Shown here one piece after another: positions 9,317 through 23,444 of a stretch of 24,041 bases of DNA. Where the stretch lies: positions 1 through 24,041 of IMG/VR virus record IMGVR_UViG_3300045135_001984; one strand, 5' to 3'. How positions within the stretch are numbered: the first letter of the stretch is position 1; each line of letters begins with the position of its first letter. Under the pieces are notes generated by a model that worked only from the letters and a program-made list of their open reading frames with translations, had not been told where the DNA came from and did not search any database. A program made the position numbers and the translations under genes. This DNA is from a virus.

Positions 9317-9345
9317 ATTATAAAGGAAAAGTGTTCTAATGTCAA
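9317..9345 (-). promoter_or_regulatory. Sigma-70-type promoter for the recombination/RNR operon
   Basis: On the - strand: TTGACA (9345-9340), 17-base spacer, TATAAT (9322-9317), both perfect. The A-rich box AAAAATAGTTC lies directly upstream and touches the stop codon of the helicase gene (9358-9356). Transcription should begin near 9310 and read gene 9291 onward. It shares the 15-base string AAAAATAGTTCTTGA with the promoters at 17847 and 19683. Confidence 0.92.
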
Positions 9346-9355
9346 GAACTATTTT

Positions 9356-10648
9356 TCACATGTCTTTAAAATAAACATTATATTTCTGCTGCATATAATG
9401 CCCCATTCTAAGCGTTGCCTGTTTTTCCGCTGTTTTACCTTTTAAGTTAATATCCACAACTACAGGCGATTTCTTTCCTGGAAATTCTCTTACTACGCGC
9501 CCAATAAGCTGAGTAAGTAGCGGAGTGTTGTTTACTGGAGTAGCTAGAATTAAACAGCTAAGAGGGTTTACGCTTATTCCCTCAGAAAAAATACTCTGAG
9601 TTCCGAGCAGTATATCTACTTGCCCGTCTTGAACTCTTTGAATTCTTCTATCCCTCTCATCCCCAGTAACCTCACCTGTTACTAGCTCACAATGATCCCC
9701 TAAAGTTTCTTTTATTCGCTTTAGAAATTGCACTCTGTCCGATAGTAACAATACTTTGTGTCCACGACTTTTGTAGGCAGCAGCTAGAAAACACACTAGT
9801 TTTCCATACTCTTCCTGACCTACCAAGTCATTTACTCTGTTAGCCCAAGGTATCTTAGCCCCATCCATAAAACGGATTTTAGTTCTAATAATATCTACCG
9901 AAGGCTCCATATAGTTTTCTTTGGGTGGAGTAAACTTTGTATGTCCAAAGTAATCTGGTAGTAAAACATGTTTTCCATCTTTTCTTTCAACAGTTCCAGA
10001 TAGTCCTATTTTGTATCGAGCGTAGCTAGCATCTACCAATTTACTAAAAGTGTTTGCTGGTATATGATGGCACTCGTCTACAATCATAGTTCCAAATTCT
10101 TTCTCTATCCTACCACGCATCTTATATAATGTTTGAACGTTGCCAACAACAATGTCAGCATCAACATTATATTTTCCAGAACCAATAATTCCTGGACTAA
10201 TACCAAAAACTTTTTTTACTTCTTTTACCCACTGATCGCGAAGAGCGACGTTATGTGTAACTATAAGTGTTTTTTGTTTTAGCTTTGATGCGATCGCAAG
10301 GGATGTAAACGTTTTACCCCAGGATACAGAAGCATTAATAACTGCATTATCCTCTATTTTGTCAAAGACTTCCTGTTGGCTTTCTCGGAGAGTAAACTTA
10401 AACTCAGGAAAATTTACTGGAATAGATACTCTCTTATCAACTATCTCATACCCTTCAGGTATAAGATCTGTGCGTCCAGCAGGAATAGAAATAATACCGT
10501 TTTTAACCCTTCGAAGATTCTTTATGATTTTTGGGGGATCATCTCGCTTATATGAATCTATCTTATAGGTCAAAGCCTTGTCAAAAAAAGACATTTGCTC
10601 TGGATCTATATTTAGATAGATTCTATTTGAGATTACCGCTTTTTTCAT
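9356..10648 (-). CDS. DEAD/DEAH-type DNA helicase (T5 D10 / T4 UvsW-like)
   Basis: A 430-residue superfamily 2 helicase. Motifs: Q/R-E-S-Q before motif I; an atypical Walker A (NASVSWGKT, 105-113, with S-W in place of the usual G-S or G-x); motif II DECHH (191-195); motif III LSGT (216-219); and a C-terminal RecA lobe ending in the arginine-finger motif TQLIGRVVRE. About 85 residues precede the helicase core, as in UvsW-type enzymes. It probably unwinds branched recombination and replication intermediates and would fit the role of D10 in T5. It overlaps the PhoH-like gene by 4 bases (ATGA) and is the last gene of the replisome operon. Confidence 0.9.
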   Translation of the reverse strand: MKKAVISNRIYLNIDPEQMSFFDKALTYKIDSYKRDDPPKIIKNLRRVKNGIISIPAGRTDLIPEGYEIVDKRVSIPVNFPEFKFTLRESQQEVFDKIEDNAVINASVSWGKTFTSLAIASKLKQKTLIVTHNVALRDQWVKEVKKVFGISPGIIGSGKYNVDADIVVGNVQTLYKMRGRIEKEFGTMIVDECHHIPANTFSKLVDASYARYKIGLSGTVERKDGKHVLLPDYFGHTKFTPPKENYMEPSVDIIRTKIRFMDGAKIPWANRVNDLVGQEEYGKLVCFLAAAYKSRGHKVLLLSDRVQFLKRIKETLGDHCELVTGEVTGDERDRRIQRVQDGQVDILLGTQSIFSEGISVNPLSCLILATPVNNTPLLTQLIGRVVREFPGKKSPVVVDINLKGKTAEKQATLRMGHYMQQKYNVYFKDM

Positions 10649-11313
10649 AAATTCTCTTTGTATTTCTCTATTAAATAATTTTTAACGAAATCGCTTCTTA
10701 CAATATCAGAAATTCCAAACTCAATGAAATCAAACTCGTTCATTCGCTTGATAATGTTGATAAATTGTTTTATGCCATTTCCTTTTAGATCTGCTTGGAA
10801 AAAATCCCCGCAAAATATGATTCTACAGTTATGCCCTACTCTAGTAATAATACTGTCTAGCTCGTGAAAAGTCATATTCTGGCACTCGTCTACGATAATG
10901 ACTGTATCCTGAAAAGTAACACCTCGTATATAAGAAGTAGTAATAAAGTTAATAATACCCTTTTGCTTTAGCTGACCGTAAGGATTGTCCCCTCTTGAAA
11001 ACAGCTCTTGCAAAATATTTACATAAGGATTCTCATACACCTTTGATTTTTCTTCTTCAGTTCCAGGTAAGAATCCCATCTCTCTAGTAGGGACTGCACT
11101 TCGGACAATTACTATCTTGTCGTATTCACCTTTCTGCATATCGTCTAAGGCTAAATACAGAGAGATGTATGTTTTACCTGTTCCAGCACATCCGTGAAGC
11201 ATTAAATTCTTATTAGATTCAAATACTTCAAGCTGTGATTTTGTTAGCGGTTCTATCTCCTTTAAGTAAAAGTTAAGAGAATTAAGTATGTCTCTCTGCT
11301 TTTTCTTTGCCAT
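10645..11313 (-). CDS. PhoH-like P-loop ATPase
   Basis: A 222-residue PhoH-family ATPase. Walker A is G41-C-A-G-T-G-K-T48; the characteristic VRSAVPTREMGFLPG stretch follows (about 70-84); Walker B is IIVDECQNM (139-147); and the sensor segment is FCGDFFQ. PhoH-like genes are very common in marine phages and T5; the protein is a predicted RNA/DNA-dependent ATPase or helicase of unclear role. Here it lies within the replisome operon with a one-base TAATG overlap upstream and a 4-base overlap with the D10-like helicase, so a role in nucleic acid processing is more likely than in phosphate response. Confidence 0.92.
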   Translation of the reverse strand: MAKKKQRDILNSLNFYLKEIEPLTKSQLEVFESNKNLMLHGCAGTGKTYISLYLALDDMQKGEYDKIVIVRSAVPTREMGFLPGTEEEKSKVYENPYVNILQELFSRGDNPYGQLKQKGIINFITTSYIRGVTFQDTVIIVDECQNMTFHELDSIITRVGHNCRIIFCGDFFQADLKGNGIKQFINIIKRMNEFDFIEFGISDIVRSDFVKNYLIEKYKENL

Positions 11314-11810
11314 TAAATTTTCCTTTTTACCTCTTCTTGCTTCTCTTCAGAAAAGCTATAAAGCAGCCATGGGCGATTGTCTAAGTGTAATACTTGTGCC
11401 CAGCTTTTTCCAAGTGGAGGGGATTTTACTATGAAACCAAAGTTTACCCCATCCAACCAAACTCTGGTGTGTGTTTCTTTTAACTCTTTTTTCTTAATTT
11501 TATAGGATTTAACAGACTGAAAAGTAGTTTTTTCGTATTTAAATATCTTTCCATTATTGTCGATAAGAGTTCCAGGATTTTCAATTACAATATCAAGAAA
11601 TTCTTCGTAGACTCTACGTAGCTTTTTTAACTTGTGTGGAGTCTGTAATCTTCTCTTTCCTAGTGTATCTCCAGGCTGATTCTTATCGTCTACAATTTCT
11701 TCATTTACTATCAGTAATCCGTCCTGAAGATAAAAATCTTCGTAAGGAAAAGCATAAACTGGAAACTTAACCTTACGTAATATTTGTTTATAGGTTAACG
11801 AAACTACCAT
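11313..11810 (-). CDS. Conserved phage protein of unknown function, polymerase-adjacent
   Basis: A protein of 165 residues when started at ATG 11810, which overlaps the polymerase 3' end by 23 bases. The longer frame to 11894 would run 107 bases into the polymerase gene and add an unrelated hydrophobic leader, so I rejected it. The sequence has a segment VDDKNQPGDTLGKRRLQTPH (about 43-62), a YEKTTF element and a C-terminal WAQVLHLDNRPWLLYSFS stretch. From memory, similar proteins of similar length occur in many marine phages, but I know no function. No catalytic motif is evident. Location between polymerase and phoH suggests a replication accessory role. Confidence 0.75.
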   Translation of the reverse strand: MVVSLTYKQILRKVKFPVYAFPYEDFYLQDGLLIVNEEIVDDKNQPGDTLGKRRLQTPHKLKKLRRVYEEFLDIVIENPGTLIDNNGKIFKYEKTTFQSVKSYKIKKKELKETHTRVWLDGVNFGFIVKSPPLGKSWAQVLHLDNRPWLLYSFSEEKQEEVKRKI

Positions 11811-14070
11811 ACTTATCTGCGAACTTACCCATTGAGTAATCATCGCCCACTTCAAAGTCACAACCAACAGGAGCGCCAGGTATATAGATACCACGATCTT
11901 TTTGAATCTCCTCTTTTAGAATTTCTGAGTATCTGTCAACTTCATCAAGAGGAACCTCTGCTAACACAGAGTCATGCACTAGAGCAAAGATTCGACTTTT
12001 TAGTCCTTCTTGTTTGATACGTGCATGAGCTTCAATAGCCCCGATTAAGTTAATATCAGAAGCAGCTGATTGAACTAAGAAGTTGAGTCCAGATCGAATA
12101 GCATGACCCTGAACACCTTTGTTGTCTGATTTTACATCTGGCAATCTTCTTTTTCTGCCAAAGTGAGAGTAGATACTCGCATTTTTCATAATCAGTTTTT
12201 TCTGGTTCTCAATCCACTCTTCAAGTTTCCAGAAAGCTGCAAAGTATTCTTTGATAACAGCCCCCGCTTCTCTTACACTCATTTTACCGCCATCTTTCGT
12301 TACCTGCTCGGCAATCTTGTTTGCTCCAGCACCATACATAATACCAAAGGTAACGGCTTTTGCAGCCTGTCGGTAAGTAGAGTATTTCTCTGCTACTTCT
12401 TCTACAGGGCAGTCTAGTTTAAATACTTTGTGTGCAATCGTAGAGTGAAAGTTTCCTCCGCTACGAAACACATCCTGTAGCTCTATATCATCTGCTAGCA
12501 CAGCAGCCACATAAACTTCTGCAGTTGTTAAGTCCATCGCAACAATCTTGTGTCCTGGAGCCGCTTTAATACATCCTTTAACAATAGGGTTGTCACGGGG
12601 CAACTGCTGCATATTTAACTTGCCGCTCGAAGACAAACGTCCAGAAGTAGTTCCGTGTAAGTTAAAGTTAGTTCTTAATCGACTATCTCTATCCAACTGA
12701 GGGATAATCTTATCAAGATAAGTATTCTTAATCTTAGTTTTCTTTCTAACGTCTAAAATCAGTCTTGGAATCTCATGTTGAAGGGATAATTTTTCTAGCA
12801 CCTCCGAGTTTGTAGAGTGCTCGCCTTTTTCTGTCATAATTCCTGTAGGCTGTAAGCCAACATAGTCAAAAAGTAACTTACGAAGCTGTAATACGCTATT
12901 TGGGTTAAACTCTTTTTCTTGTTCCTGTTGAAACTTCTGTACAGCTTCATGGTTTTGAAGTGTTTCTACAGCAGCAGAAATTTCTTCAAGCATAAGATCC
13001 TGACTAGCAATAAGACGATCCTTTGAAAAGGGAACGCCATTATCTTGAACACTCATTAGGAATCTGCATCCAGGAAGTAAAATAGTTTTATATACTTTCA
13101 TTAGGTTTGGATTCCCCTTTTTCAGGGCATTCTCAAACTTCTGAAAAAGCATAAAGGTAACGCACGCATCAATAGCGGCGTAAGTTTTCATAACGTCAAA
13201 AGGAATCCACTCCCATTTAAACTGATCTTTCAATATACCGTGTTGCTTTCTATATTCTTCCATCCAAGTATACATAGGTTTTTCATAGTCACCATAGTCT
13301 GTATACTTCATAGCTAGAGTTTTTAGGCCGTGAGTGCCTGGATTCTCATCAATCACATAATGCATAAGCATAGTATCCTCGAACTGAGGAACAGTTACAT
13401 TGAAGTGATACTCAAACATTGGAATATCGAACTTAGCGTTGTGGAATACCATACGCTTTTTGTCGAAAAGTTCCTGTAGTTTTTCTTCCATCGCTTCATC
13501 AATTACATTTGCATCTATGTAAGCGCCACTATCGTTCTGATAGCAAAGACTGATGCCAAGAATATGCCCGTTTCGAGGATATAGGCCGGTAGTCTCTGAG
13601 TCAATACCGATAAAATCGTGTGGTGAATCAATACACGCTTGAACATAGGCTAGCGCCTCCTCTGTTGTAGTAATACCGACAAACTTCTCTTCAGATATAT
13701 CAGCTTTTTTCTTGTTACCGCTGATATATCCAAGGATATTGTCTTTTGAATCGTCCCATACTTTTTTAGCTTCAGGCTTAAATGCAAGCATGGCGGGGTT
13801 AATTGTTGGAAGAAACTTATCATCCACAATAGTTCCTGCATACTGCATAACCTGAGATACTTTTGTAAAATACTTTAGAGGTTCTGACCCCACTAAAATT
13901 ACCCACTCATACGCATCGGGATCGAACTCAAGATCTACGTCTTTTTTCAAAACCTTGGAGAGAGTCGGATCAGATGCCAAAGAAAAACGATCAAACTCAA
14001 AGGAATTATCAAAGAGTCTTACATAATCATTTTTACTTGGCTTTGTTTCAATCAAAGCTACACTAGCCAT
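11788..14070 (-). CDS. DNA polymerase, family A, with 3'-5' exonuclease
   Basis: A 760-residue replicative polymerase. The DnaQ-like exonuclease has D157-x-E159, D215 and D301 with Y297, so proofreading should be active. The polymerase domain shows TTSGRLSS (474-481), motif A D513-L-T-T-A-E518, motif B R567...K571...F575-G-x-x-Y579-G, and motif C H699-D700-S701. The position equal to E. coli Phe762 is Phe (F575). Motif C has Ser where E. coli Pol I has Glu883. There is no 5' nuclease domain; that activity is encoded separately at 4233-5084. The N-terminal 130 residues are not recognised. It overlaps the primase gene by 8 bases. Confidence 0.96.
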   Translation of the reverse strand: MASVALIETKPSKNDYVRLFDNSFEFDRFSLASDPTLSKVLKKDVDLEFDPDAYEWVILVGSEPLKYFTKVSQVMQYAGTIVDDKFLPTINPAMLAFKPEAKKVWDDSKDNILGYISGNKKKADISEEKFVGITTTEEALAYVQACIDSPHDFIGIDSETTGLYPRNGHILGISLCYQNDSGAYIDANVIDEAMEEKLQELFDKKRMVFHNAKFDIPMFEYHFNVTVPQFEDTMLMHYVIDENPGTHGLKTLAMKYTDYGDYEKPMYTWMEEYRKQHGILKDQFKWEWIPFDVMKTYAAIDACVTFMLFQKFENALKKGNPNLMKVYKTILLPGCRFLMSVQDNGVPFSKDRLIASQDLMLEEISAAVETLQNHEAVQKFQQEQEKEFNPNSVLQLRKLLFDYVGLQPTGIMTEKGEHSTNSEVLEKLSLQHEIPRLILDVRKKTKIKNTYLDKIIPQLDRDSRLRTNFNLHGTTSGRLSSSGKLNMQQLPRDNPIVKGCIKAAPGHKIVAMDLTTAEVYVAAVLADDIELQDVFRSGGNFHSTIAHKVFKLDCPVEEVAEKYSTYRQAAKAVTFGIMYGAGANKIAEQVTKDGGKMSVREAGAVIKEYFAAFWKLEEWIENQKKLIMKNASIYSHFGRKRRLPDVKSDNKGVQGHAIRSGLNFLVQSAASDINLIGAIEAHARIKQEGLKSRIFALVHDSVLAEVPLDEVDRYSEILKEEIQKDRGIYIPGAPVGCDFEVGDDYSMGKFADKYGSFVNL

Positions 14071-14893
14071 ATAAATTACTCCGAATTCTGTCTACCTGTT
14101 GTTGTGTTAGTGCCCCTGGGTCTTGTCCGTTCTTTAACTTAATAGACCGAACAGGGAAATCTTTTGCAATTGCTTTTACTTTTTCTGCTCCGGCTTGTCC
14201 AGCATCGTCAGGATCGAAAAATATATCGAGTCCAGACACTCCAGAGATTTTTAGATAATTTAGTTTTTCTTCGGTAAAGTTGTTCACTCCGAAACAGCAA
14301 ATAGAGTTTTCTAGCCCTTTATCATGAAGGTTGAGCATATCAAATATTCCTTCAACTAGAATGACTCGGCCCTGTAGTGGCCTTACCTGTGGAAACATTG
14401 GTAACTTAGTTCCTGTAGGGTAAAACATATACTTTTGATCTAAAGTTCCAAACTCGTCCCTTCCTTGGAATGCTACTATTCTACCACTAGTATCTGTTAT
14501 TGGAAAGTTAATTCTGCCCTGAAAATGCGTGTCATGGTGACGAAAAGCTTTAAACTTTTTATATGTTTCAGGTTTGATTCCTCTCCAATTCCCAAGATAA
14601 GGAACATAACTTTCTGGCATTTGTAAACCAACTCCAGAAGATCTAAGGTTAGAAATTATTCTTTTTAGTTTTTCTCTTTTTACTTCTACAGCACTATAAT
14701 CTACATTGTAGTATTTGAATAGACTGCCTTTGTAGCCGCAAGAAAAACAGTGGAACACTCCAAGCACTTTATCAATTCTCATGCTCGGTTTTCTATCGTC
14801 ATGGTCTGGATTAAGACATCTAATAAGCACATCTTTACCAGAGAGACGATAATAAACACCTCTTTCTTCTAGTAAATCAATTACTGCGCTCAT
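14063..14893 (-). CDS. DnaG-type DNA primase
   Basis: A 276-residue primase that makes RNA primers for the replisome. It has a CHC2 zinc-binding domain (C26, H31, C49, C52), then the RNA-polymerase basic stretch (GRINFPI, FQGRD) and a TOPRIM core with E180 (ILVEGIFD) and D226/D228 (FDPDDAG). It is short compared with cellular DnaG: the C-terminal helicase-binding domain is missing, as is common for phage primases. It overlaps the helicase gene by 4 bases (ATGA) and the polymerase by 8, so helicase, primase and polymerase are translated from one message. Confidence 0.94.
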   Translation of the reverse strand: MSAVIDLLEERGVYYRLSGKDVLIRCLNPDHDDRKPSMRIDKVLGVFHCFSCGYKGSLFKYYNVDYSAVEVKREKLKRIISNLRSSGVGLQMPESYVPYLGNWRGIKPETYKKFKAFRHHDTHFQGRINFPITDTSGRIVAFQGRDEFGTLDQKYMFYPTGTKLPMFPQVRPLQGRVILVEGIFDMLNLHDKGLENSICCFGVNNFTEEKLNYLKISGVSGLDIFFDPDDAGQAGAEKVKAIAKDFPVRSIKLKNGQDPGALTQQQVDRIRSNLYG

Positions 14894-16224
14894 ATTTCGT
14901 AAACATCCTCATCAGGTTCGTCTTTATCTTTAATATATCCAGTTTCTGGGCCTATTCTTAAGGAAGCCCAATCCATTGTAGAAGTGAAACTTGTTTCATC
15001 TGAGTTTCTCATCTTAACACAATTAAAGGTAATAATATTATCTTCTTTATTGTGTGCGTCAAGAGTAAATGCGGCATCGGCAGCGTCTAGAATACCCTTA
15101 GCAAAACGAGCTTCTCCTGAAGCATCAATTTGATAAGGAGACACCATCAATACACCATAGTCTTGGGCGTAAGTTTTTAATGCTTTACTTACTTCAATCT
15201 GTTCTGTCCAGTCATACTGACCCATTCTACCAGAGTTCATCATTGATCTTTTAACCTGGTTGATATAGTCTACTACTACAACTCTTGGCTCTAGTTTATT
15301 TACTAGCTTATCAAGAGTAGTTCTAATATTTGCTAGCGTAAGGCTAGGAGTATATTCTATGTGTAACTGCTTTTCTCTCAAAGGTCTAGATGTGAGATCT
15401 TCGTGATACTTTGTAAAATCTCTGTGTTGTAAATATCTTGAAAGTGCCCGCTCACCGTCTTCAAAGCGAGTTGACCACCAACGGGCAACTTGCTCCCATT
15501 CACCAATAGACAGATTTCTGTTTCTTAGTGCGGCGGCGGGAACTCCTGTAGAGATAGAACAACATCTCTGCATGATAGATCTAGCTGTCATTTCGATAGT
15601 AAAGTAGATCACAGACTGACCCCCATCAAAAACGCTAGATGCAATGTTTGCACAAGTTACTGATTTACCAGCACCTCGTCGACCCCCAACCAATACTAAG
15701 TCAGAAGGTCCGAAGGTTTGTATACGGTCAAAGTCATTATTTAATCCAAGAGCGACATTCTTCTGTAAGTCTTCTTCTGGATCAAACAATTCCATTTTTC
15801 TCATATTGGTTTCATTAGTCTTTAACTCTACCTTTTCTTCTAGATCTAGAACTATGTTCTGCAAGTGCTCGATATTCTCTTGCGCAGATTCCATAGCAAT
15901 AGAGTCACTTAGATAGGTTTCTAACTGACCCATAATTTCAATTTGAGTATACTCGTTTTTGAGATACTCTAACAGAGTTTTGCCATCAATATCAACATCT
16001 TCAACACTTTCTAGCGCCAAGAATCTTTCGCGCAGAGAAGCGTCTCTTACTGATAGCTTAAGATCATCAAAGGAGGGAAGTATGCTATGTTCAACAACAT
16101 ACTTATTGAGATACGACCAGAGACCGGAGTATTCAGAGGGGAAATAGTGTTTTTGACAGTTAGCCCAAGTGTCCATATCGCATTCAGCGATAATTGTTTT
16201 TAGCAGGACACTCGACAGGTTCAC
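14890..16224 (-). CDS. Replicative DNA helicase, DnaB-like
   Basis: A 444-residue RecA-fold hexameric helicase. The N-terminal helical domain (1-145) precedes the motor: Walker A GGRRGAGKS (180-188), FTIEM (208-212), Walker B VVVVDY (315-320), and a late SPYQIDASGEARFAKG segment with the arginine-finger region. It should move on the lagging strand and work with the primase directly downstream. It starts at GTG 16224 with GGAG 9 bases upstream. The gene begins 29 bases after the U-tract of a strong terminator and has no recognisable promoter of its own. Confidence 0.93.
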   Translation of the reverse strand: MNLSSVLLKTIIAECDMDTWANCQKHYFPSEYSGLWSYLNKYVVEHSILPSFDDLKLSVRDASLRERFLALESVEDVDIDGKTLLEYLKNEYTQIEIMGQLETYLSDSIAMESAQENIEHLQNIVLDLEEKVELKTNETNMRKMELFDPEEDLQKNVALGLNNDFDRIQTFGPSDLVLVGGRRGAGKSVTCANIASSVFDGGQSVIYFTIEMTARSIMQRCCSISTGVPAAALRNRNLSIGEWEQVARWWSTRFEDGERALSRYLQHRDFTKYHEDLTSRPLREKQLHIEYTPSLTLANIRTTLDKLVNKLEPRVVVVDYINQVKRSMMNSGRMGQYDWTEQIEVSKALKTYAQDYGVLMVSPYQIDASGEARFAKGILDAADAAFTLDAHNKEDNIITFNCVKMRNSDETSFTSTMDWASLRIGPETGYIKDKDEPDEDVYEI

Positions 16225-16252
16225 TTATATATACTCCGTAACAATATTCATG

Positions 16253-16290
16253 CAAGAAAAAGCAACTACTGGGATTGCCCCAGTAGTTGC
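16253..16290 (-). terminator. Strong intrinsic terminator after the D5-like gene
   Basis: A perfect 12-bp stem (GCAACTACTGGG at 16262-16273 with its complement at 16279-16290) with a 5-base loop. In the - strand direction it is followed at once by TTTTTCTT (16261-16253). It lies between the HTH-repeat protein gene and the replicative helicase gene on the same strand, so unless it is bypassed it separates the replisome operon from all upstream promoters. Confidence 0.88.
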
Positions 16291-16299
16291 GAGGTGAAA

Positions 16300-16329
16300 T
16301 CCTACACAGCCTAAGGTAAGTGTGTAGGA
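16300..16329 (-). other. Second hairpin upstream of the terminator
   Basis: A 9-bp inverted repeat (TCCTACACA at 16300-16308 with TGTGTAGGA at 16321-16329) closes a 12-base loop. It is read just before the terminator stem on the - strand and begins 9 bases after the stop codon of the 240-residue protein. There is no U-tract behind it, so it is not itself a classical terminator; it could be an RNA-stability element, a protein-binding site or part of an antitermination switch. Confidence 0.6.
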
Positions 16330-16337
16330 CGTATTAA

Positions 16338-17060
16338 TCAACCAGCAGCTTTTGCGGCTTTAGCAGCGCCGTCGTAGTTAGAAGCAGCAAGACCTCTACG
16401 AGTCAGCATAGTCTTAACACCACGAGCAGTTTTGCCAATTGCTTCTGCAATTTCTTCAACAGTCATTGCAGCAACATCAACGCCTTCTAAAGGATCTACA
16501 CGACCTGAAGCCTTGCTCTCTTTCTGAGAAGGAATAGATTCGATAGAACCTTGACGAAGCAATGACAATGCTTTACCACGGATTTGATTAACAGTGCGTC
16601 CAAGAGAATCAGCGATGTCTTCTAGGAAACTGCCCTGATTAGCCATATTGATGAAAGTAGCTTCTTCAGCTTCAGAGAAAGTGCGAACAGTCTCTACTTT
16701 CGGAGTAGGCTTAACGTGTTCAGTTAACTGCATAGACAGCAATTTACCTTGAATTTGCTTAGATGAAAACTCACCACCTTCAAAAGCTTCAGCGATTTGG
16801 CCATAAGTAAATGCGCCTGAGTTTTCCGTAACGAAGTTACGAAGAGTTGCTTCTTGAGCGTCAGAAAACGCACGAGTAGCTGTAGAAGTAGAAGATTCTA
16901 CTTCATGACCCATCTTACGGAGCTTAGAAGCTACCGAACGGGGAGAAGTGTCAAGCTGATCAGCAGCTTCAACAACAGTAGAGTATGAAACTGGAGCTTC
17001 ATCGCCTACGAAAGATACAAGAGCGGCGGTGCGCTCGTCAGTCCACTTTGGAATTGCCAT
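16338..17060 (-). CDS. DNA-binding protein with four HTH-like repeats (T5 D5-like?)
   Basis: A 240-residue protein built from repeated SANT/Myb- or HTH-like units at about 6-50, 65-112, 128-170 and 195-224. The first three begin W-T-D/F-S-D/F-S-E followed by an acidic E-A-T helix, and each ends with a helix of the type S-V-A-S-K-L or Q-I-R-G-K. The tail is A/K rich. Such tandem units suggest sequence-specific or cooperative DNA binding. In T5 the abundant DNA-binding regulator D5 is of about this size and lies near the replication genes, so it may be the counterpart; this is inference. It is the last gene before the terminator that guards the replisome operon, a fitting place for a regulator. 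A weak AGGA site overlaps the upstream ligase stop. Confidence 0.72.
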   Translation of the reverse strand: MAIPKWTDERTAALVSFVGDEAPVSYSTVVEAADQLDTSPRSVASKLRKMGHEVESSTSTATRAFSDAQEATLRNFVTENSGAFTYGQIAEAFEGGEFSSKQIQGKLLSMQLTEHVKPTPKVETVRTFSEAEEATFINMANQGSFLEDIADSLGRTVNQIRGKALSLLRQGSIESIPSQKESKASGRVDPLEGVDVAAMTVEEIAEAIGKTARGVKTMLTRRGLAASNYDGAAKAAKAAG

Positions 17061-17067
17061 AATAAAA

Positions 17068-17820
17068 TTATCCTATTAATTGAGAAAGGTTAGAAATAAT
17101 GGAGATGCCACTCTCCTTTGCTTTTTTAGTTTTTGAGGACTCAATGCCACTTTCATTTACTAGAATAGTTACTTCCTTTGTAATAGAGTTTTTAACTATA
17201 TAACCAGCAGATAAAAGGGCTGACTCCGCTTCTGACTTAGTTTTAAAACTTGTTAGTTTTCCAGAAATACATACAACTCCTTTGACAGTATTTTCGGACT
17301 TCTTGTCAGAAGAAGACTCAAAAGAAAAAGGAAGCCATTTATATTCAGTTAAGAACTTAGTTTTATACCACTCCAACAAATTATTTGTTGCTTTTGGGCC
17401 AACGCCGGCTTCTTTACATACTTCTTCGTTTAAGTCATAGATAGAACTCACCAAAGGACAAATCTTAGAGGCTACAGAATTCCCTACCAAAGGTATGGAA
17501 AATGCAGGCAACAATATCTCCAGAGTAGCTTTTCTGGATTCTTGTATCTCTTGAAATAGTTTATTGGCGAGCTTTTCTGAATTAAGAGCTACGACCATCT
17601 CATCTAAACTCAATTCGTATATTTGAGGTATTGTAGTAATGTTGAGTTTTTGGATTGATGATGGCCCTAACCCCTTAATTTTCAATGTCTTGGAGAAATG
17701 TTCGATAAGTTTTTGAGTTTTGCTACCACACGAAGGGTTGTAGCAAAATAGCTGATCGTTTTCCCACTCAAGAGGAAACTCACAACTAGGACAGCTTGTA
17801 GGAGCTATAATTTTAATCAA
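17068..17820 (-). CDS. ligB: NAD-dependent DNA ligase, C-terminal subunit (zinc finger, HhH, BRCT)
   Basis: A 250-residue protein that corresponds to the second half of bacterial LigA. It begins with the four-Cys zinc finger C10-x2-C13-x12-C26-x4-C31, continues with the helix-hairpin-helix region (about 45-150, including GLGPSS and GVGPKA), and ends in a BRCT domain (about 172-250, with GVVCISGKL). It has no adenylation site. The other half is encoded at 18737-19657, so the two must assemble into one ligase, as with the ligase A/B subunits annotated in T5. The start is TTG at 17820 with GGAG 7 bases upstream, about 20 bases after the predicted transcription start of its own promoter. Confidence 0.9.
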   Translation of the reverse strand: MIKIIAPTSCPSCEFPLEWENDQLFCYNPSCGSKTQKLIEHFSKTLKIKGLGPSSIQKLNITTIPQIYELSLDEMVVALNSEKLANKLFQEIQESRKATLEILLPAFSIPLVGNSVASKICPLVSSIYDLNEEVCKEAGVGPKATNNLLEWYKTKFLTEYKWLPFSFESSSDKKSENTVKGVVCISGKLTSFKTKSEAESALLSAGYIVKNSITKEVTILVNESGIESSKTKKAKESGISIISNLSQLIG

Positions 17821-17846
17821 AGCCTTTCTCCAACGATTGAATAGAT

Positions 17847-17875
17847 ATTATACGACGTTCGAGTTGAAAAGTCAA
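17847..17875 (-). promoter_or_regulatory. Sigma-70-type promoter for the ligase C-subunit operon
   Basis: On the - strand: TTGACT (17875-17870), 17-base spacer, TATAAT (17852-17847). The upstream box AAAAATAGTTC contains the TAG stop (17881-17879) of the GIY-YIG-like gene. The transcription start is expected near 17840, 20 bases before the TTG start of the ligase subunit. Confidence 0.9.
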
Positions 17876-17878
17876 GAA

Positions 17879-18241
17879 CTATTTTTGTGTTGGTATAGCT
17901 AAAATAATTTCTTTCTTTATTTCGAAACACTCTGTATATCCTCCGAAGCTTTCCTTCGGTATATAACTATATTCTTTAAACTCTTCGTGCAATGCCTGCT
18001 CTAGTTTCCAGACATTAAAAAGGGTATCCCTGTAAGTCTTTTGAATACGAATTTCGTATCCGTTAAATCCCCTACTTCTTTTTAAGACATCTTTCCAGTT
18101 TTTGCCAGCAGCAATGCCTATCTTTAGGCACTCCCTTTTCATAGTCTTTTTATTAACTAGAATAACGCAGTATAAAACTCCGTCTTTCTGTGCTTCTTCA
18201 GGATGATTCTTAAAGTAGGTAAGATTATATACACCAGACAC
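17879..18241 (-). CDS. GIY-YIG-like protein (T5orf172/MUG113 type)
   Basis: A protein of 120 residues if it starts at GTG 18241, which overlaps the upstream TAG by one base (TAGTG); a longer GTG start at 18274 is possible but has no ribosome site. The core reads G21-V-L-Y-C-V-I-L, then L39-K-I-G-I, a basic helix, L80-E81-Q-A-L-H-E-E-F and a final GGYTECFEI. This order (strand with G-x-Y, K-I-G strand, Arg/Lys helix, conserved Glu81, C-terminal ECF) is that of the T5orf172-type GIY-YIG superfamily. It may be a nicking or flap nuclease, or an inactive relative. It lies between the two ligase subunit genes and its stop codon is inside the next promoter's upstream box. Confidence 0.62.
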   Translation of the reverse strand: MSGVYNLTYFKNHPEEAQKDGVLYCVILVNKKTMKRECLKIGIAAGKNWKDVLKRSRGFNGYEIRIQKTYRDTLFNVWKLEQALHEEFKEYSYIPKESFGGYTECFEIKKEIILAIPTQK

Positions 18242-18423
18242 TAATCTACCGTTCCGTCTTCTTTCTGGCCACACCAGTCACAAGGCTTTCCAGCTTCTAT
18301 AGACATCTGGCCATTATTCTTACAGTTATGTTCCCACATATCCTTTTTGTTTTTAAAAATATTTTCCCAGTTACTATCAAATTTTTCTCGATTAACTGGT
18401 CGATATTTTGATCCTTTAGACAT
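18241..18423 (-). CDS. Small CxxC protein of unknown function
   Basis: A 60-residue basic/polar protein. The N-terminal part (SKGSKYRPVNREKFDSNWENIF) resembles a short protein I recall from many phages; the C-terminal part has C34, then C48-D-W-C51-G, a possible half zinc site. It is linked by one-base overlaps to both neighbours (TAATG upstream, TAGTG downstream), so it is translated as part of the ligase N-subunit operon. Function unknown. Confidence 0.65.
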   Translation of the reverse strand: MSKGSKYRPVNREKFDSNWENIFKNKKDMWEHNCKNNGQMSIEAGKPCDWCGQKEDGTVD

Positions 18424-18740
18424 TAATCTTTCCTCCTGAAAGGAACAACATTGTTCGTAAAAAACTCTTTAACTTTAGCTGTCTTCTCTTCAACAGCTCC
18501 CGCCTCAGAAACAACTAGATTTCCTTCTGCGATTTCAGTTTCAGCCATCATCTCTTCTACGTCTGCTTCCAGATAGTATTCGAGAGCACTGATCCACTCT
18601 TCTATTATTCGTATACGAGTTTCTGCTTTGAGTGCCCAGAAGTAGTCGTATACACCAACAACTGCAGAGTAGTAATCTTCATTTTCCTGAAGACCCATAA
18701 CTCCAAAGATGCTTTCTTCTGAAGAAAAATATTCTTTCAT
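18423..18740 (-). CDS. Unknown acidic protein in the ligase operon
   Basis: A protein of 105 residues when started at the ATG (18740) that overlaps the ligase stop as ATGA, with AAGG 5 bases upstream. The longer frame to 18797 only reads through the ligase 3' end. It is mainly helical: a Tyr/Trp-rich first half (DYYSAVVGVYDYFWAL), an acidic Glu-rich middle, and a basic end (VVPFRRKD). No motif is recognised. The tight coupling with the ligase adenylation subunit hints at co-expression rather than proving a shared function. Confidence 0.65.
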   Translation of the reverse strand: MKEYFSSEESIFGVMGLQENEDYYSAVVGVYDYFWALKAETRIRIIEEWISALEYYLEADVEEMMAETEIAEGNLVVSEAGAVEEKTAKVKEFFTNNVVPFRRKD

Positions 18741-19657
18741 AAACGCCTTACTACTCTTGGTATGATTTCTCCGGAACGGATAACTTCTACCATACAACCT
18801 ATCTCTAGGTTAAGATCATTTATATACTTCATATTGTGGAGTGTGGCTCTACTGACTATAGCTTCTCCTACTGTCACAGGCTCTAGAATTGCTACGGGTG
18901 ATACTACTCCCGACTTTCCTACTTGCCATACAACATCCAGGAGTTTAGTTACTACACCAGCTTTCTGCTCTTTAAGAGCATATGCACCACGAGGATGGTG
19001 TGCTGTGTAGCCTAGGTCTTCAAACCTCTCTACACTGTTAAGTCGAAATACTTTACCGTCGTGAGGATACTCACTCCAGTCTTTGTCGATTACAGTAGAA
19101 AACCCAAAACTCTTTAGCTCTTTTAGCTCATCTGTCCAAAAGTTATGCACTTTCGGAAATACATCATAAGCAATAAAAGAAAGAGGTCGAGAATGAAACT
19201 CCTCTATACTTTTTAGATTTAAAGATCCTGAAGCTACATTTCGTGCGTTTGGAACTATAGAAGGACAAACTACTTCTCCAGTAATTTGAACTTCCCCTTC
19301 ACAATCTATAGTTGTAGGAACTAGGAGTTTCATCTTTTCTGTGATGTCTAAACCCTTCTTGCCGTCTCCACGAGTAAGTGCGAGAACAAGTTCTCCTTCT
19401 GAGTATCGGAGAGATACTGCGGCACCATCCAACTTTGAAGTCACTACAACTTCGCTGTTGGTAGGAAAAGGAGGCTCTTCACCTTCAAATACTTTCTGAA
19501 GGCTATACATAGGGTATAGATGAGAGAAACGAAAATCAGATCTGTAGCCTACGTCATCATACCCTGCCTTCTCAGCAAGAGCATCAAACTCAGCATCTGA
19601 TATAATAGGATTTCCTTCGTAATATGCTTTTGCAGCTTTTTCAAGGAAGTTTTGCAT
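18737..19657 (-). CDS. ligA: NAD-dependent DNA ligase, N-terminal adenylation subunit
   Basis: A 306-residue protein that equals the first half of bacterial LigA. A shortened domain Ia (YYEGNPIISDAEFD, 12-25) binds NMN. The nucleotidyltransferase domain has the AMP-accepting K75-L-D-G78, then TRGDG, GEVV and ASGSLN. The OB domain (about 240-306) carries WQVGKSGVVSP and ends with the GEIIPRV segment that in whole ligases comes just before the zinc finger. The break is thus at a domain border, and the zinc finger, HhH and BRCT parts are encoded at 17068-17820. It starts about 19 bases after the transcription start of its own promoter. It seals nicks in replicating phage DNA. Confidence 0.93.
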   Translation of the reverse strand: MQNFLEKAAKAYYEGNPIISDAEFDALAEKAGYDDVGYRSDFRFSHLYPMYSLQKVFEGEEPPFPTNSEVVVTSKLDGAAVSLRYSEGELVLALTRGDGKKGLDITEKMKLLVPTTIDCEGEVQITGEVVCPSIVPNARNVASGSLNLKSIEEFHSRPLSFIAYDVFPKVHNFWTDELKELKSFGFSTVIDKDWSEYPHDGKVFRLNSVERFEDLGYTAHHPRGAYALKEQKAGVVTKLLDVVWQVGKSGVVSPVAILEPVTVGEAIVSRATLHNMKYINDLNLEIGCMVEVIRSGEIIPRVVRRL

Positions 19658-19682
19658 TTAGTATTCCGCTAATTAAAAGTAT

Positions 19683-19711
19683 ATTATACACGCAAAATAA
19701 AAATAATTCAA
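19683..19711 (-). promoter_or_regulatory. Sigma-70-type promoter for the ligase N-subunit operon
   Basis: On the - strand: TTGAAT (19711-19706), 17-base spacer, TATAAT (19688-19683). The -35 box is the weakest of the six. The upstream box AAAAATAGTTC is identical to two other copies and contains the TAG stop of the PC4-like gene (19717-19715). Predicted start near 19676. Confidence 0.85.
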
Positions 19712-19714
19712 GAA

Positions 19715-19996
19715 CTATTTTTGGTAAAGGTCTCTAATTATTTCTGAAAAGAATTGCTCAAGAACTTGTTTATTCTCTGCAAGAGATAATATCTCCGATA
19801 GGGCTATAAAAAGTTCTTTAGAAGTGTCTAGCTCAAGTGCAATTGCTATACCCTTATCGGATGGTAGCCAATCTTCGTCAAACCCAAGATAATACTCACG
19901 TAAATGTAAATACTCTTCACCTCTGAACTCATTTATAGTTAGTCTGATTTGTTTGAATTCGTTCTCATAAATTATTCTAGAATATACATCGGTCAT
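19715..19996 (-). CDS. PC4-like ssDNA-binding / transcription coactivator protein
   Basis: A 93-residue protein with the strand pattern of the PC4/p15 family: F14-K-Q-I-R-L-T-I-N-E-F-R-G-E-E-Y, then L-H-L-R-E-Y-Y, a turn with W43-L-P-S-D-K-G-I-A-I, and a C-terminal helix. The N-E-F-R-G and P-S-D-K-G-I elements are the family hallmarks. PC4-like proteins form dimers that bind single-stranded or unwinding DNA; T5 encodes one linked to recombination-dependent replication. It starts in an ATGA overlap with the upstream gene. Its last codons and stop are within the upstream box of the ligase promoter. Confidence 0.75.
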   Translation of the reverse strand: MTDVYSRIIYENEFKQIRLTINEFRGEEYLHLREYYLGFDEDWLPSDKGIAIALELDTSKELFIALSEILSLAENKQVLEQFFSEIIRDLYQK

Positions 19997-20259: not shown

Positions 20260-20326
20260 TTTACAACTCCAAGTTTATTTTGAGCAAAACCTCTTTTGTC
20301 GTAATAAACTTTTGAGTGTAAAAGTA

Positions 20327-20364
20327 ACCCCCCGGTTTGAGCATTGTAAAGAGGCTTGGGGGGT
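20327..20364 (-). other. GC hairpin in the gap between two co-directional genes
   Basis: ACCCCCC (20327-20333 on the + strand) can pair with GGGGGGT (20358-20364) around a 24-base loop, in an otherwise AT-rich region. On the - strand it lies 10 bases after the stop of the 149-residue protein and is followed by only a weak T-rich stretch (TTACTTTTAC). It may be a leaky terminator or attenuator that lowers expression of the two following genes; the large loop makes this uncertain. Confidence 0.4.
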
Positions 20365-20373
20365 GTTGTTGAA

Positions 20374-20823
20374 TTAGTTATTAATCGCTGTGATTATAGT
20401 AGTGAAGTATTGTGCTGCTTTACCAGTCAATTTGCTAACGATTTCTTCGTCAACTTCTTGACCAGCGTCTTGGATAGCTGCAGTAAGAGCTTCTACTGCC
20501 GCTGCTTTTGATACGCGAGTGCCGCCAGTTGATTTGCTAGCACCGCCTGCAGAAGAAGCTGCAGGAACTTTTTTGACATACACATCAGCTTTCGTAAGAA
20601 TCATGCGAACACCGTTAGGTGATTGACCCATATCTTCTGCGATTGCTTTTACAATCTCCATAGAAGTTTCTGGGGTAGGGTTCTCTGCAAGGTATGCTTC
20701 GATTGCTTGTTGTTTGTCTTCGTCTGTCCACGCCATTTTTCGTTTCCTTTTGGTTTGTGAAATTGTAGCTCCAGGGCAATTACCTGTAGCTTCTAGTTGT
20801 TGCCTGTAAAATCGTTCGCCCAT
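20374..20823 (-). CDS. HTH/SANT-like DNA-binding protein
   Basis: A 149-residue protein. A basic start (1-30, with KRKRK at about 25-29) leads to a W-T-D-E-D-K unit (32-75) resembling the repeats of the 240-residue protein at 16338-17060 and containing GQSPNGVRMILTKADV as a likely recognition helix. A low-complexity A/S/G linker (about 88-105) and a C-terminal helical domain (108-149) follow. It has a good site (GGAG, 5 bases) before ATG 20823, 14 bases after the predicted transcription start; a second ATG at 20736 (codon 30) also has an AGGA site and could yield a shorter form. Likely an early regulator or architectural DNA-binding protein. Confidence 0.72.
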   Translation of the reverse strand: MGERFYRQQLEATGNCPGATISQTKRKRKMAWTDEDKQQAIEAYLAENPTPETSMEIVKAIAEDMGQSPNGVRMILTKADVYVKKVPAASSAGGASKSTGGTRVSKAAAVEALTAAIQDAGQEVDEEIVSKLTGKAAQYFTTIITAINN

Positions 20824-20843
20824 ATGCTCTCCGATAAAAGTAT

Positions 20844-20872
20844 ATTATAGAGCTTTCAGCAAAATTTGTCAA
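20844..20872 (-). promoter_or_regulatory. Sigma-70-type promoter for the DNA-binding/PC4 operon
   Basis: On the - strand: perfect TTGACA (20872-20867), 17-base spacer, perfect TATAAT (20849-20844). The upstream box is AAAAATAAATC. The TGA stop of the methyltransferase gene (20871-20869) is inside the -35 hexamer itself. Predicted start near 20837, giving a very short leader before ATG 20823. Confidence 0.92.
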
Positions 20873-21639
20873 GATTTATTTTTAAGGTATCTAGTGTAAA
20901 TCTCGACTAGTTCACCTTTTCCAAGTGAGGGGTTTCCTGCAGTATCTCGACTAGCCTCTTGAAAGTCTTTTTCGAGAATTCGAAAAGTTTCAATGACCCC
21001 GCTGTGGGCTTGTTTAATAAAGTAATTTGATGCTGCTGCAAAGTTATTATGCGGGTTTATTTTTCCAGCATTTACACCTACCCTACGCAAACTAAAATCA
21101 CAGCTATCAGCATCTACAAAGCTGAAATCTTCGTGTGTAGTGTTTAATATAACCTTCTTTCGAGGAACCTCGCTATACTTCCAAACCTGAAAGACACAAG
21201 GAACAGAGTAATTCTTTCCATCTAAAGTAAAGCTATCAGAAGGAAGATTTACTTCTTTAATTAAAATAAAGTTAAGGTCTAGCGAATTCTGAACTGACAC
21301 TTTTCGAAAAGTTCGAGGCACAATAAATCCAATCACACCTTTTCCTTTTGCGGCATGATTAAAGAATGCTTTAGCTAAAGAACTGTTCTTTCCGAAAGGC
21401 GGATTCCCTAAGTAATATTTATACTTAGTAGTATCAAAAGTCAGAAAGTCTTGTTCAAGTATTCCTGGAGCTTCTGGAACTAAGTCTAACATTAGCGTTA
21501 CATAGTCTTTAAAAGCTCCTGCGCCTGCAGAAGGCTCTACTACTTCTTGTCCAGGCTCTACATAATTATAAAAAATATCAGAGACAAGACGAACTTGCTC
21601 TGATTTTGTGTAGAACTTATCTAAGCTTTTACTATCCAA
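20869..21639 (-). CDS. N6-adenine DNA methyltransferase
   Basis: A 256-residue methylase of the type with SAM motif before catalytic motif: motif I V34-E-P-S-A-G-A-G-A-F43 binds S-adenosylmethionine and N79-P-P-F82 is the adenine-N6 catalytic motif. An IGFIVPRTF strand follows. The end of the protein (160-256) is probably a small target-recognition region. It overlaps the putative nuclease gene by 8 bases, so both come from one transcript and translation is likely coupled. It may protect phage DNA from the partner nuclease or from host restriction. The recognition sequence cannot be read from the protein. Confidence 0.88.
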   Translation of the reverse strand: MDSKSLDKFYTKSEQVRLVSDIFYNYVEPGQEVVEPSAGAGAFKDYVTLMLDLVPEAPGILEQDFLTFDTTKYKYYLGNPPFGKNSSLAKAFFNHAAKGKGVIGFIVPRTFRKVSVQNSLDLNFILIKEVNLPSDSFTLDGKNYSVPCVFQVWKYSEVPRKKVILNTTHEDFSFVDADSCDFSLRRVGVNAGKINPHNNFAAASNYFIKQAHSGVIETFRILEKDFQEASRDTAGNPSLGKGELVEIYTRYLKNKS

Positions 21640-22180
21640 AGTTTTCTCCCACCAACTTTTCGAAAGTGCTACAGGTCTCTAACTCGAACAGTTTTTCTAG
21701 GTTAGTTCTGTTGATTCCGCACTGAACTCTGCGTTGGTTCTTACTGTCAATTTTAGGCTGAATTGTGAGCATACCCATCTTATGTTTATTTTCTTCTTTC
21801 CATGCCTTTGCGTATGCTCTAGCTTCGTTGTGTTTTCCAGGCCCAAAGCTTTTAATAGCATTGTCAAACTCTACCACATCCTGTAGAGTAAGATCGCCCA
21901 TTAATTTTTTGCAGATTTCTTCAGTAAAGAAAAGCTCATATACAGCATCACAGACTTTATCTGTATGCCTTCCAAGTATCATAGTCCAGTTGCCCCGCTC
22001 AAGGGCTTCAAAAATGCGAACTACAGATCCCATATCTATAGTTCCTCTGGAAGAGATAAACTTAATGGAAATACTATCGCCAATATCCCATTTAGAGGTA
22101 TAGCTTTTAACCTCATTAACGTCAAGAATATCTTTTATTTTTTGCTCGAATCTAAATCCGTGCGCTTGTCTTTCTGCCAT
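21632..22180 (-). CDS. Putative type II restriction-type endonuclease
   Basis: A 182-residue protein. It begins with an H-G-F-R-F-E-Q-K-I helix (E12), then Y-T-S-K-W-D32-I and S-I-S-I-K40-F, followed by G-T-I-D-M-G-S. This resembles a PD-(D/E)XK centre in which the usual D/E-x-K is S-x-K, a layout I recall in small nucleases encoded next to adenine methylases. A later P-K-I-D-S-K-N-Q-R-R-V-Q-C segment (152-164) may contact DNA. AGGAG sits 5 bases before the ATG and a near-consensus promoter lies just upstream. The neighbouring methylase gene is the strongest argument for a restriction role; the enzyme activity is unproven. Confidence 0.6.
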   Translation of the reverse strand: MAERQAHGFRFEQKIKDILDVNEVKSYTSKWDIGDSISIKFISSRGTIDMGSVVRIFEALERGNWTMILGRHTDKVCDAVYELFFTEEICKKLMGDLTLQDVVEFDNAIKSFGPGKHNEARAYAKAWKEENKHKMGMLTIQPKIDSKNQRRVQCGINRTNLEKLFELETCSTFEKLVGENFG

Positions 22181-22201
22181 AGCTTCTCCTAATATTTGTA
22201 T

Positions 22202-22230
22202 ATTATACTTGAATGGGATGAAAAAGTCAA
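22202..22230 (-). promoter_or_regulatory. Sigma-70-type promoter for the nuclease-methylase pair
   Basis: On the - strand: TTGACT (22230-22225), 17-base spacer, perfect TATAAT (22207-22202). The upstream box GGAATAATTTC contains the TAA stop of the membrane protein gene (22237-22235). Predicted start near 22195, 15 bases before the ATG at 22180. Confidence 0.9.
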
Positions 22231-22234
22231 GAAA

Positions 22235-22486
22235 TTATTCCTCTTCTTCCTCTTCATTCATACTAGCTACAAGGCCCTCATAATACAGTTCTGCGTTCAT
22301 AATAAACACAAGAAAATGCATTGGGGCCATGACAAGATTAATTAATATGTTTAGAAATAGATATATTACCCAGCCTTTAAAGGCCAGGTTAAGTGTAGAG
22401 TCTAATACTGCTCGTATCTGTAAGTGCAACATACAGATACAAGTAGTTATGCAAAAAACTGCATACCATTGGAAAAATGTTTCCAT
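22235..22486 (-). CDS. Small membrane protein with poly-Glu tail
   Basis: An 83-residue protein with two probable membrane helices (about 6-26 and 39-62) and a C-terminus that ends in a run of six Glu after Met-Asn. AAGGA lies about 6 bases before the ATG. It is 11 bases downstream of the HTH/AT-hook gene and its stop is inside the next promoter. It could sit in the inner membrane, with the acidic tail in the cytoplasm. Function is unknown; superinfection exclusion or membrane anchoring are only possibilities. Confidence 0.65.
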   Translation of the reverse strand: METFFQWYAVFCITTCICMLHLQIRAVLDSTLNLAFKGWVIYLFLNILINLVMAPMHFLVFIMNAELYYEGLVASMNEEEEEE

Positions 22487-22497
22487 AAAAGTCCTTA

Positions 22498-23142
22498 TTA
22501 GATTTTGGAAACATTAACTCCGAACTGTTTCAGATGTTCCAACTTGCCTAAATCATACGACGGAGCTGCAGCACAAAATCCTGCAATTCTATCAGTTTCT
22601 GAAGGCTCTTTAACATAGATTTCATAGCACTTTGTGCCATACTTCTCAGTATACTTTTCTGGAAGTTGCTTCGTAATAATACAGGCACTATGGTATTTAG
22701 CAGACCAGGCTATCTCATCTACTGAAAAATCTTCCGACAAGCACTCGTCAGGCAGATATGCCATCTCAAGCTTATCGTCTCCTGTAGCCCTTTCTGGAAC
22801 ACCAATACGTTCTAGGCATGATTTTACAAAAGCCGTAGATCTGTATACTGATCTAGAAATATCTGCTATAGGTTCTCCAGATAGAAAAGCTTCTATCATT
22901 TCTTTCAGTTCAGAATTGTCTGCAGGCCGTCCACGTTTTTGAGACATACGAAGTTTTCTATAGGCTACGTTTTCATTGTAGTCATCTATAATTTTTTGCA
23001 GACGAGTTGTATTATACGAGATATTTAGTATCTCGCAGGCTTCTTTCTTGGTAATAGGGTTTTCTGCTAATAGCAGTGCGATCACTTTCTTAATGTTTGT
23101 ATCGGAAAGATCTTCATAGTCCTTTTTCTTTACTCTCGCCAA
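22498..23142 (-). CDS. DNA-binding protein: two HTH segments with an AT-hook-like linker
   Basis: A 214-residue protein starting at TTG 23142, chosen because GGAGG lies 6 bases upstream; the longer frame to 23181 has no such site. Residues 18-56 hold an HTH (T-K-K-E-A-C-E-I-L-N-I-S-Y-N-T-T), residues 66-74 the basic Q-K-R-G-R-P-A of an AT-hook type, and 78-115 a second HTH (I-A-D-I-S-R-S-V-Y-R-S-T-A-F-V). The C-terminal 95 residues form a separate domain with strands (CYEIYVKEP) that I do not recognise. It overlaps the pyrophosphohydrolase gene by 29 bases. A transcriptional or replication regulator is likely but untested. Confidence 0.68.
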   Translation of the reverse strand: MARVKKKDYEDLSDTNIKKVIALLLAENPITKKEACEILNISYNTTRLQKIIDDYNENVAYRKLRMSQKRGRPADNSELKEMIEAFLSGEPIADISRSVYRSTAFVKSCLERIGVPERATGDDKLEMAYLPDECLSEDFSVDEIAWSAKYHSACIITKQLPEKYTEKYGTKCYEIYVKEPSETDRIAGFCAAAPSYDLGKLEHLKQFGVNVSKI

Positions 23143-23413
23143 GTTTAGCCTCCAATTTAAATAGTAAACAGCAAATAGCATGGGCTAAATGATCTAAATC
23201 TGTTTCTGGATCTAGATCTTCCCCATCCATATGTGCAAATATATGTCTAAGAGCAGCACCAGTATAACGATTCTGAAGATTATCTAATTTAGACCAGTTA
23301 TTCTCGTCATACTTTGAAGCTCCAAAAGTAAGAACTTTTGATACTTCAATAAGTGCCTTTGGAGGAAGCAAATACATTCTTGGCTTCTCTCCATCATATT
23401 TCTTACCTTCCAT
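23114..23413 (-). CDS. dATP/dGTP pyrophosphohydrolase-like protein (DUF5664 type)
   Basis: A 99-residue all-helical protein. The family hallmarks are K5-Y-D-G-E-K-P-R12 at the start, L-L-P-P-K-A-L, V-L-T-F-G-A-S-K-Y with N-N-W, R49-Y-x-x-A-A-L-R-H, and G-E-D-L-D-P-E-T-D-L-D-H-L-A-H-A near the end, which carry the acidic metal ligands. Members of this MazG-related group hydrolyse dATP/dGTP and may adjust nucleotide pools. The ATG at 23413 follows AGAGG by about 8 bases; a longer frame from 23455 only adds residues read from the thyX end. The start codon overlaps the -10 box of a promoter, so a transcript from that promoter would lack this ATG. Confidence 0.8.
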   Translation of the reverse strand: MEGKKYDGEKPRMYLLPPKALIEVSKVLTFGASKYDENNWSKLDNLQNRYTGAALRHIFAHMDGEDLDPETDLDHLAHAICCLLFKLEAKLGESKEKGL

Positions 23414-23440
23414 TATAAGACCTCTAGAAACTAATGTCAA
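23412..23440 (-). promoter_or_regulatory. Sigma-70-type promoter overlapping the start of the pyrophosphohydrolase gene
   Basis: On the - strand: perfect TTGACA (23440-23435), 17-base spacer, perfect TATAAT (23417-23412), upstream box CCAATAAATTC with the thyX TAA stop (23447-23445). The TTCTTGACATTAG string equals that of the promoter at 9317. Transcription would begin near 23405, inside the pyrophosphohydrolase reading frame, and would in any case serve the HTH/AT-hook and membrane-protein genes. Confidence 0.8.
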
Positions 23441-23444
23441 GAAT

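Follow-up and report, generated by a model that had tools for sequence, protein, structure and literature searches.

What kind of promoter serves the early region of an uncultivated T5-like phage, and does the promoter itself carry the mark that separates early from late genes? The window analyzed here (the whole stretch of 24,041 bases, 62% AT) is a fragment of a T5-like (Demerecviridae-type) marine phage without a close cultured relative. A nucleotide search with the window gave no near match among known phage records; its DNA polymerase is about 44% identical to those of cultured T5-like phages and its D5 protein at most about 52% identical, and many relatives in IMG/VR are closer to it than the cultured phages are. 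By PHROG matches, the gene set is that of the T5 D region, including genes for thymidylate synthase, a MazG-like enzyme, a D2-like helicase, a D3-like DNA-binding protein, a split NAD ligase, a D5-like regulator, a DnaB-like helicase, primase, DNA polymerase, PhoH, a D10-like helicase, a single-stranded DNA-binding protein (SSB, in the D11 position), SbcD/SbcC, RusA, an exonuclease, and ribonucleotide reductase (RNR). The window contains no clear late operon.

Promoter layout and conservation

A first-pass annotation made from the sequence had described six near-identical promoters, and all six are present on the - strand, each with TATAAT exactly 17 bp from a near-consensus -35 hexamer (Table 1). 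The A-rich box adjoining the -35 was likewise found, the site at 23412 being an outlier without the A-tract, and the 15-mer AAAAATAGTTCTTGA is common to the sites at 9317, 17847, and 19683. A search of the window for TTGANW-N17-TATAAT gave six matches, all of them on the - strand. The form TTGA[CA][AT]-N17-TATAAT, which fits all six sites, is expected 0.03 times per window on both strands in first-order Markov shuffles, with a maximum of 1 site per shuffle in 400 shuffles. Chance matches in AT-rich DNA, which a window of 62% AT might be thought to favor, are thus refuted as an explanation for six sites on one strand that are also kept in relatives.

A weight matrix was built from 90 dereplicated sites of related contigs, with the window sites not used. 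A scan of the whole window with this matrix placed the six sites as the top six, with scores of 42.5, 42.3, 41.6, 38.4, 26.4 (22202), and 14.3 (23412) bits; 95% of the shuffle maxima fell below 12.9 bits, and the next window match scored 8.5 bits, so that the scan revealed no missed promoters of the same type in the window. Five sites are strong and the one at 23412 is weak; at the five, the next start codon lies 20 to 26 nt beyond TATAAT. The discriminator begins with AT in five of the six and is ATATT in none. The spacers do differ, as had been noted, but they are not free to vary, since relatives share a weak spacer pattern in which positions 10 to 12 are A/T-rich and positions 13 to 16 are mostly pyrimidines.

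Table 1. Promoters and other features of the window and of related loci. Genes listed as served are putative assignments; G and L numbers designate related contigs and loci.
Feature	Position	Strand	Elements	Genes served	Kept in; T5 counterpart
Promoter 1	9317..9356	-	Box AAAAATAGTTC 9346-9356; TTGACA 9340-9345; TATAAT 9317-9322; discriminator ATGTTA	8902-9291 (phrog_4258), ssDNA-binding protein (T5 D11 position), SbcD/SbcC (D12/D13), RusA-like, exonuclease, RNR	G1, G2, G6, G7, G9, G13, G14 (same gene); P31A/P31B
Promoter 2	17847..17886	-	Box AAAAATAGTTC 17876-17886 (contains TAG stop of 17879-18274); TTGACT; TATAAT; discriminator ATCTAT	T5-ligB homolog 17068-17820, D5 homolog 16338-17060	G1, G2, G6, G7, G9, G10, G12, G13, G14; P-K28a/b
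Promoter 3	19683..19722	-	Box AAAAATAGTTC 19712-19722 (contains TAG stop of 19715-19996); TTGAAT; TATAAT; discriminator ATACTT	T5-ligA homolog 18737-19657	G1, G2, G9, G12, G14; annotated promoter before ligA
Promoter 4	20844..20883	-	Box AAAAATAAATC 20873-20883; TTGACA (contains TGA stop of 20869-21639); TATAAT; discriminator ATACTT	D3-like DNA-binding protein 20374-20823, two small genes (one regulator-like)	G1, G2, G6, G7, G10, G12, G13, G14; P-N26 before D3
Promoter 5	22202..22241	-	Box GGAATAATTTC 22231-22241 (contains TAA stop of 22235-22486); TTGACT; TATAAT; discriminator ATACAA	21632-22180, 20869-21639	
Site 6 (doubtful)	23412..23451	-	Box CCAATAAATTC; TTGACA; TATAAT; discriminator GGAAGG		L073 (near-match)
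D5-like DNA-binding regulator	16338..17060	-	phrog_323, E=4e-44; in promoter 2 operon		
Intrinsic terminator	16262..16290	-	Between D5 and DnaB-like helicase, upstream of replisome operon		
parS-like palindromes	L473:2215-2230; L177:1509-1524; L480:11530-11545; L478:5611-5626; loci L481-L559		TGTTNCACGTGNAACA		
TGTGGATAA repeats	L470:3292; L495:12479; L532:10782; L554:13718				
PPK2-like genes	L177:879-1487; L470:2242-2859	+; -			
tmRNA genes	L177:11772-12115; L464:15471-15894	-; +			

The sixth site lacks both the A-tract and an AT discriminator. Its TATAAT overlaps ATG 23413, where the homology of a gene encoding a MazG/dATP-pyrophosphohydrolase-like protein begins; a transcript from this site would miss that ATG, and its role as promoter of this nearest gene is doubtful. 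A single relative (L073) carries TTGACA-N17-TAGAAT in the corresponding position, so the site may still serve the genes below.

The description of the sites as conserved regulatory sequence holds well beyond the window, the element being found at the same positions before the same genes in many relatives, including contigs whose polymerase identity is as low as 58%. Raw sites in loci carrying the polymerase or D5 gene number 313 on the coding strand versus 7 on the other, and those in terminase loci number 131 versus 5. Between the -35 and the homologous coding region lie mostly 29 to 64 nt. Among the IMG/VR matches listed, AAAAATAGTTCTTGA is followed by TATAAT at exactly 17 in 126 of 153 copies, and 77 of the 120 contigs that carry it match a window-region protein, most of them matching several. 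ACC(T) is weakly enriched at -20 to -18 before the -35, where about one-quarter of the sites start with ACC; at the peak position, ACC is found in 12% of dereplicated sites versus a background of 1%, and it is also seen in noncoding DNA.

The early promoters of T5 (PN25, PN26, PH207, P-K28, and P31A/B; AY543070) resemble these sites in having an A-rich box adjoining the -35 and a spacer of 17, in being host sigma-70 promoters (putatively so in the clade) of the D region with TATAAT mostly followed by AT, and in their compact placement at gene ends before the same genes; four window sites occupy T5 promoter places (before D3, ligA, ligB, and D11). The elements themselves differ. The -35 of the clade is TTGACW, with 14 to 19 spacer-17 sites bearing TTGAC per long relative contig, whereas that of T5 is TTGCTN, found in 26 of 37 spacer-17 sites in T5 and in 0 of 6 sites in the window. 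The clade box is AAAAATARTTC and the T5 box is AAAAATTCAT-like, and the TTCATAAATTG conserved after the -10 in T5 is missing in the clade. Judged by these elements, the clade shares the plan and the places of the T5 promoters and not their exact sequences, and it is a variant of the T5 promoter set rather than a member of it.

By position, the sites fit the first-pass proposal that they are promoters for early (D-region) operons, but the six alone do not define those operons, because the replisome operon (9356-16224), which has no promoter of the same type and lies behind an intrinsic terminator, presumably relies on read-through or antitermination for its expression. In relatives, the gap between D5 and the helicase (16225-16337 in the window) contained a terminator under a strict test in 18 of 26 diverged gaps, versus 4% of shuffles, and no promoter was found in any of the 26; phage PR1 has a terminator annotated at the same place. 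Retention of a terminator without a promoter suggests attenuation or antitermination.

The discriminator and gene class

The terms early and late are used here for gene content by homology to T5, not for measured timing. In two long relatives, G1 (91.8 kb) and G2 (88 kb), the same element also stands before late operons; relatives carry the box, the -35, the 17-bp spacer, and TATAAT ahead of the portal operon and of a tail operon. A late set of 32 dereplicated sites from terminase loci was compared with the early set of 90. The A-tract is stricter at the late sites (AAAAAT in 32 of 32), and G is found at -14 in 75% of them. The two sets diverge directly after the -10 hexamer. The base following TATAAT is A in 87 of 90 early sites, with T next in 84%, versus 3 of 32 late sites, which carry T or G instead (Fisher p=2e-21, with 24 of the 32 late sites coming from one orthologous place, the terminase-portal gap, and thus being less independent than this value suggests); among the 8 late sites from a second place, A follows TATAAT in 3. 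Across 13 long contigs, A was found in 43 of 43 early versus 1 of 11 late sites (p=5e-10; sites within 1.5 kb of a recognized same-strand gene, near-identical contigs not collapsed). At the level of sequence, the core is general, and it is the discriminator that tracks gene class.

It could be argued that the discriminator difference reflects the ancestry or leader needs of particular genes instead of timing, as the late sites come mostly from a single orthologous place and some far sites in the neighborhood of late genes carry A. We consider this explanation rather unlikely, though it is the strongest of the alternatives, since the early A is found before at least six different genes in many diverged contigs and since this region also distinguishes the T5 classes (PMC7472727). 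The early and late promoters of T5 are reported to differ mainly in the discriminator, with ATATT as the early form (Klimuk et al., PMC7472727), and gpT5.026 to weaken the contact of polymerase with the discriminator (PMC7472727). The bases used by T5 and by the clade differ while the place is the same: after TATAAT, late sites of the clade have T or G and those of T5 have A or G (PG25 A, PJ5 G). Because T5 late promoters lack T after TATAAT, the clade discriminator rule is not the T5 rule. A phmmer search of the relatives, whose contigs are incomplete, gave no homolog of gpT5.026.

The first-pass annotation had taken the box and hexamers together as an early-specific promoter class. All six window sites do precede early-type genes, and the late use was hidden from that reading because the window holds no clear late operon. 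With the same box, -35, spacer, and -10 before portal and tail operons in relatives, the claim as stated is refuted, and an early-specific class is very improbable; since late genes use the core as well, it does not set timing.

Our preferred explanation, which takes layout, conservation, position, and the discriminator split from the sequence and infers where transcription starts, that the box acts as a UP element, when the genes are expressed, and how polymerase is switched, is held with good confidence: these are probably strong promoters of T5 layout for the host housekeeping polymerase, with a shared core and a discriminator that tracks class, and a change made by the phage would switch the polymerase from early to late genes. 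The sites lie in the short intervals between the early D-region genes and overlap those genes; there, a sigma-70-type subunit would read the near-consensus -35 and -10 across the 17-bp spacer. Placed at -46 to -36, the box would act as a proximal UP subsite for one alpha C-terminal domain, and the adjoining TTC would extend the -35. Through this core, unmodified host polymerase could start the early operons at once. The discriminator differs by gene class, with AT at early genes, T or G at late genes, and a GC-rich form beside putative pre-early genes. Most likely, a change of the polymerase by the phage, through a functional counterpart of gpT5.026, D5 (required for late transcription according to the T5 record), or both, would alter the tolerance for discriminators and so shift the polymerase from the early promoter class to the late one.

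The way in which T5 redirects host polymerase from one gene class to another has been described as unknown (PMC7472727). A stricter and more tentative version of the preferred explanation, to which we give somewhat less than even weight, is that a single near-consensus host promoter serves all phases, that temporal class lies only in the discriminator (AT early, T or G late, CGGCGC as a third class), and that the switch acts on the contacts between polymerase and discriminator. With near-constant core and box and differing discriminators, the clade offers natural, well-controlled promoter pairs for testing such a switch, as well as a simple candidate rule by which early and late operons could be assigned in T5-like genomes from metagenomes.

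The A-rich box as a probable UP-like element

The box had also been read as a UP-like element for the alpha subunits of host polymerase. The position fits this reading, in which alpha would bind the box. The box covers -46 to -36, its A-tract (-46 to -42) keeps register with the -35, and the proximal UP subsite has been placed at -45 to -37 (PMC2613000) or -46 to -38 (PMC5664571). Six successive positions (-45 to -40) are 92 to 100% A/T, compared with a background of 61%. A distal UP tract (about -58 to -47) was not found, AT content there being around or below background; the proximal subsite acts without the distal one (PMC4390567), and half UP elements changed transcription little in a study of E. 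coli (PMC5664571). The box is thus like a proximal UP subsite in its register and in standing without a distal tract and is unlike one in having T at -41 and, at early sites, a conserved TTC at -38 to -36. Its putative role as a UP-like element for host polymerase is well supported by position.

A scan for box, core, and spacer in one genome per species from 84,980 bacterial and archaeal species returned 111 stretches. Among the 80 listed, most are in Clostridia, several directly before tRNA genes; about ten matches are phage contigs binned into metagenome-assembled genomes (MAGs). The strong tRNA promoters of Clostridia have the identical box, -35, spacer of 17, and -10, but they are cellular, and their discriminators are not of the phage early type. 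From these cellular sites before tRNA genes, the ordinary housekeeping polymerase evidently uses the element, which makes a phage-specific factor at the box unlikely. Ribosomal RNA promoters were considered as the model copied by the phage and rejected, as tRNA genes and other loci were found and no rRNA gene in the 18 loci examined.

The box might alternatively be an operator for an activator or repressor encoded by the phage, given that its sequence is less variable than is usual for UP elements (R at -39 and C at -36 in early sites) and that the phage encodes D5 and other DNA-binding proteins. This is improbable in view of the same 11 bases and core in front of tRNA genes of Clostridia and elsewhere in cellular genomes, the sharing of the box by early and late sites, and a register that fits the proximal alpha site. 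Retention of the box as the carrier of the stop codon of the upstream gene is rejected as highly implausible: that stop overlaps the box or the -35 in 49 of 73 early sites, most often with the TAR in the box (17) or the TGA in TTGA (17), but TAR is present in 42 of the 73 though it is not the stop there, and it is found in nearly all late sites, where the terminase stop lies upstream and the box is kept without such use.

A third, GC-rich discriminator class and its neighbors

At some sites in the neighborhood of T5 dmp homologs, TATAAT is followed by CGGCGC. The form TTGACA-N17-TATAAT-CGGCGC was found in 81 IMG/VR stretches, and three or more proteins of the phage clade are encoded in 74 of 80 loci. 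In the loci read, these promoters point into a noncoding stretch. The class is putatively pre-early, a label taken from the dmp-like neighbor alone.

Palindromes resembling the canonical chromosomal parS (TGTTNCACGTGNAACA) are present in 27 of 80 loci on the downstream side of CGGCGC promoters, 212 to 498 nt away, and all 27 parS in 756 kb adjoin such promoters. T5 contains no parS-like palindrome. A host-type ParB site beside the putative pre-early region of a lytic T5-like phage merits a study of its own. In other members, the CGGCGC promoter is followed by TGTGGATAA repeats in place of parS. On the opposite strand, these repeats read as DnaA boxes (TTATCCACA); this stretch may be a counterpart of the T5 injection stop signal. 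The putative pre-early region of two relatives also encodes a protein resembling polyphosphate kinase 2 (Pfam PPK2; E=3e-42 and 1e-44).

Two relatives carry tmRNA genes. The one in L177 matches the permuted and the alphaproteobacterial families of tmRNA, as well as a short stretch of a Pelagibacter phage SsrA, which gives a hint of alphaproteobacterial hosts.
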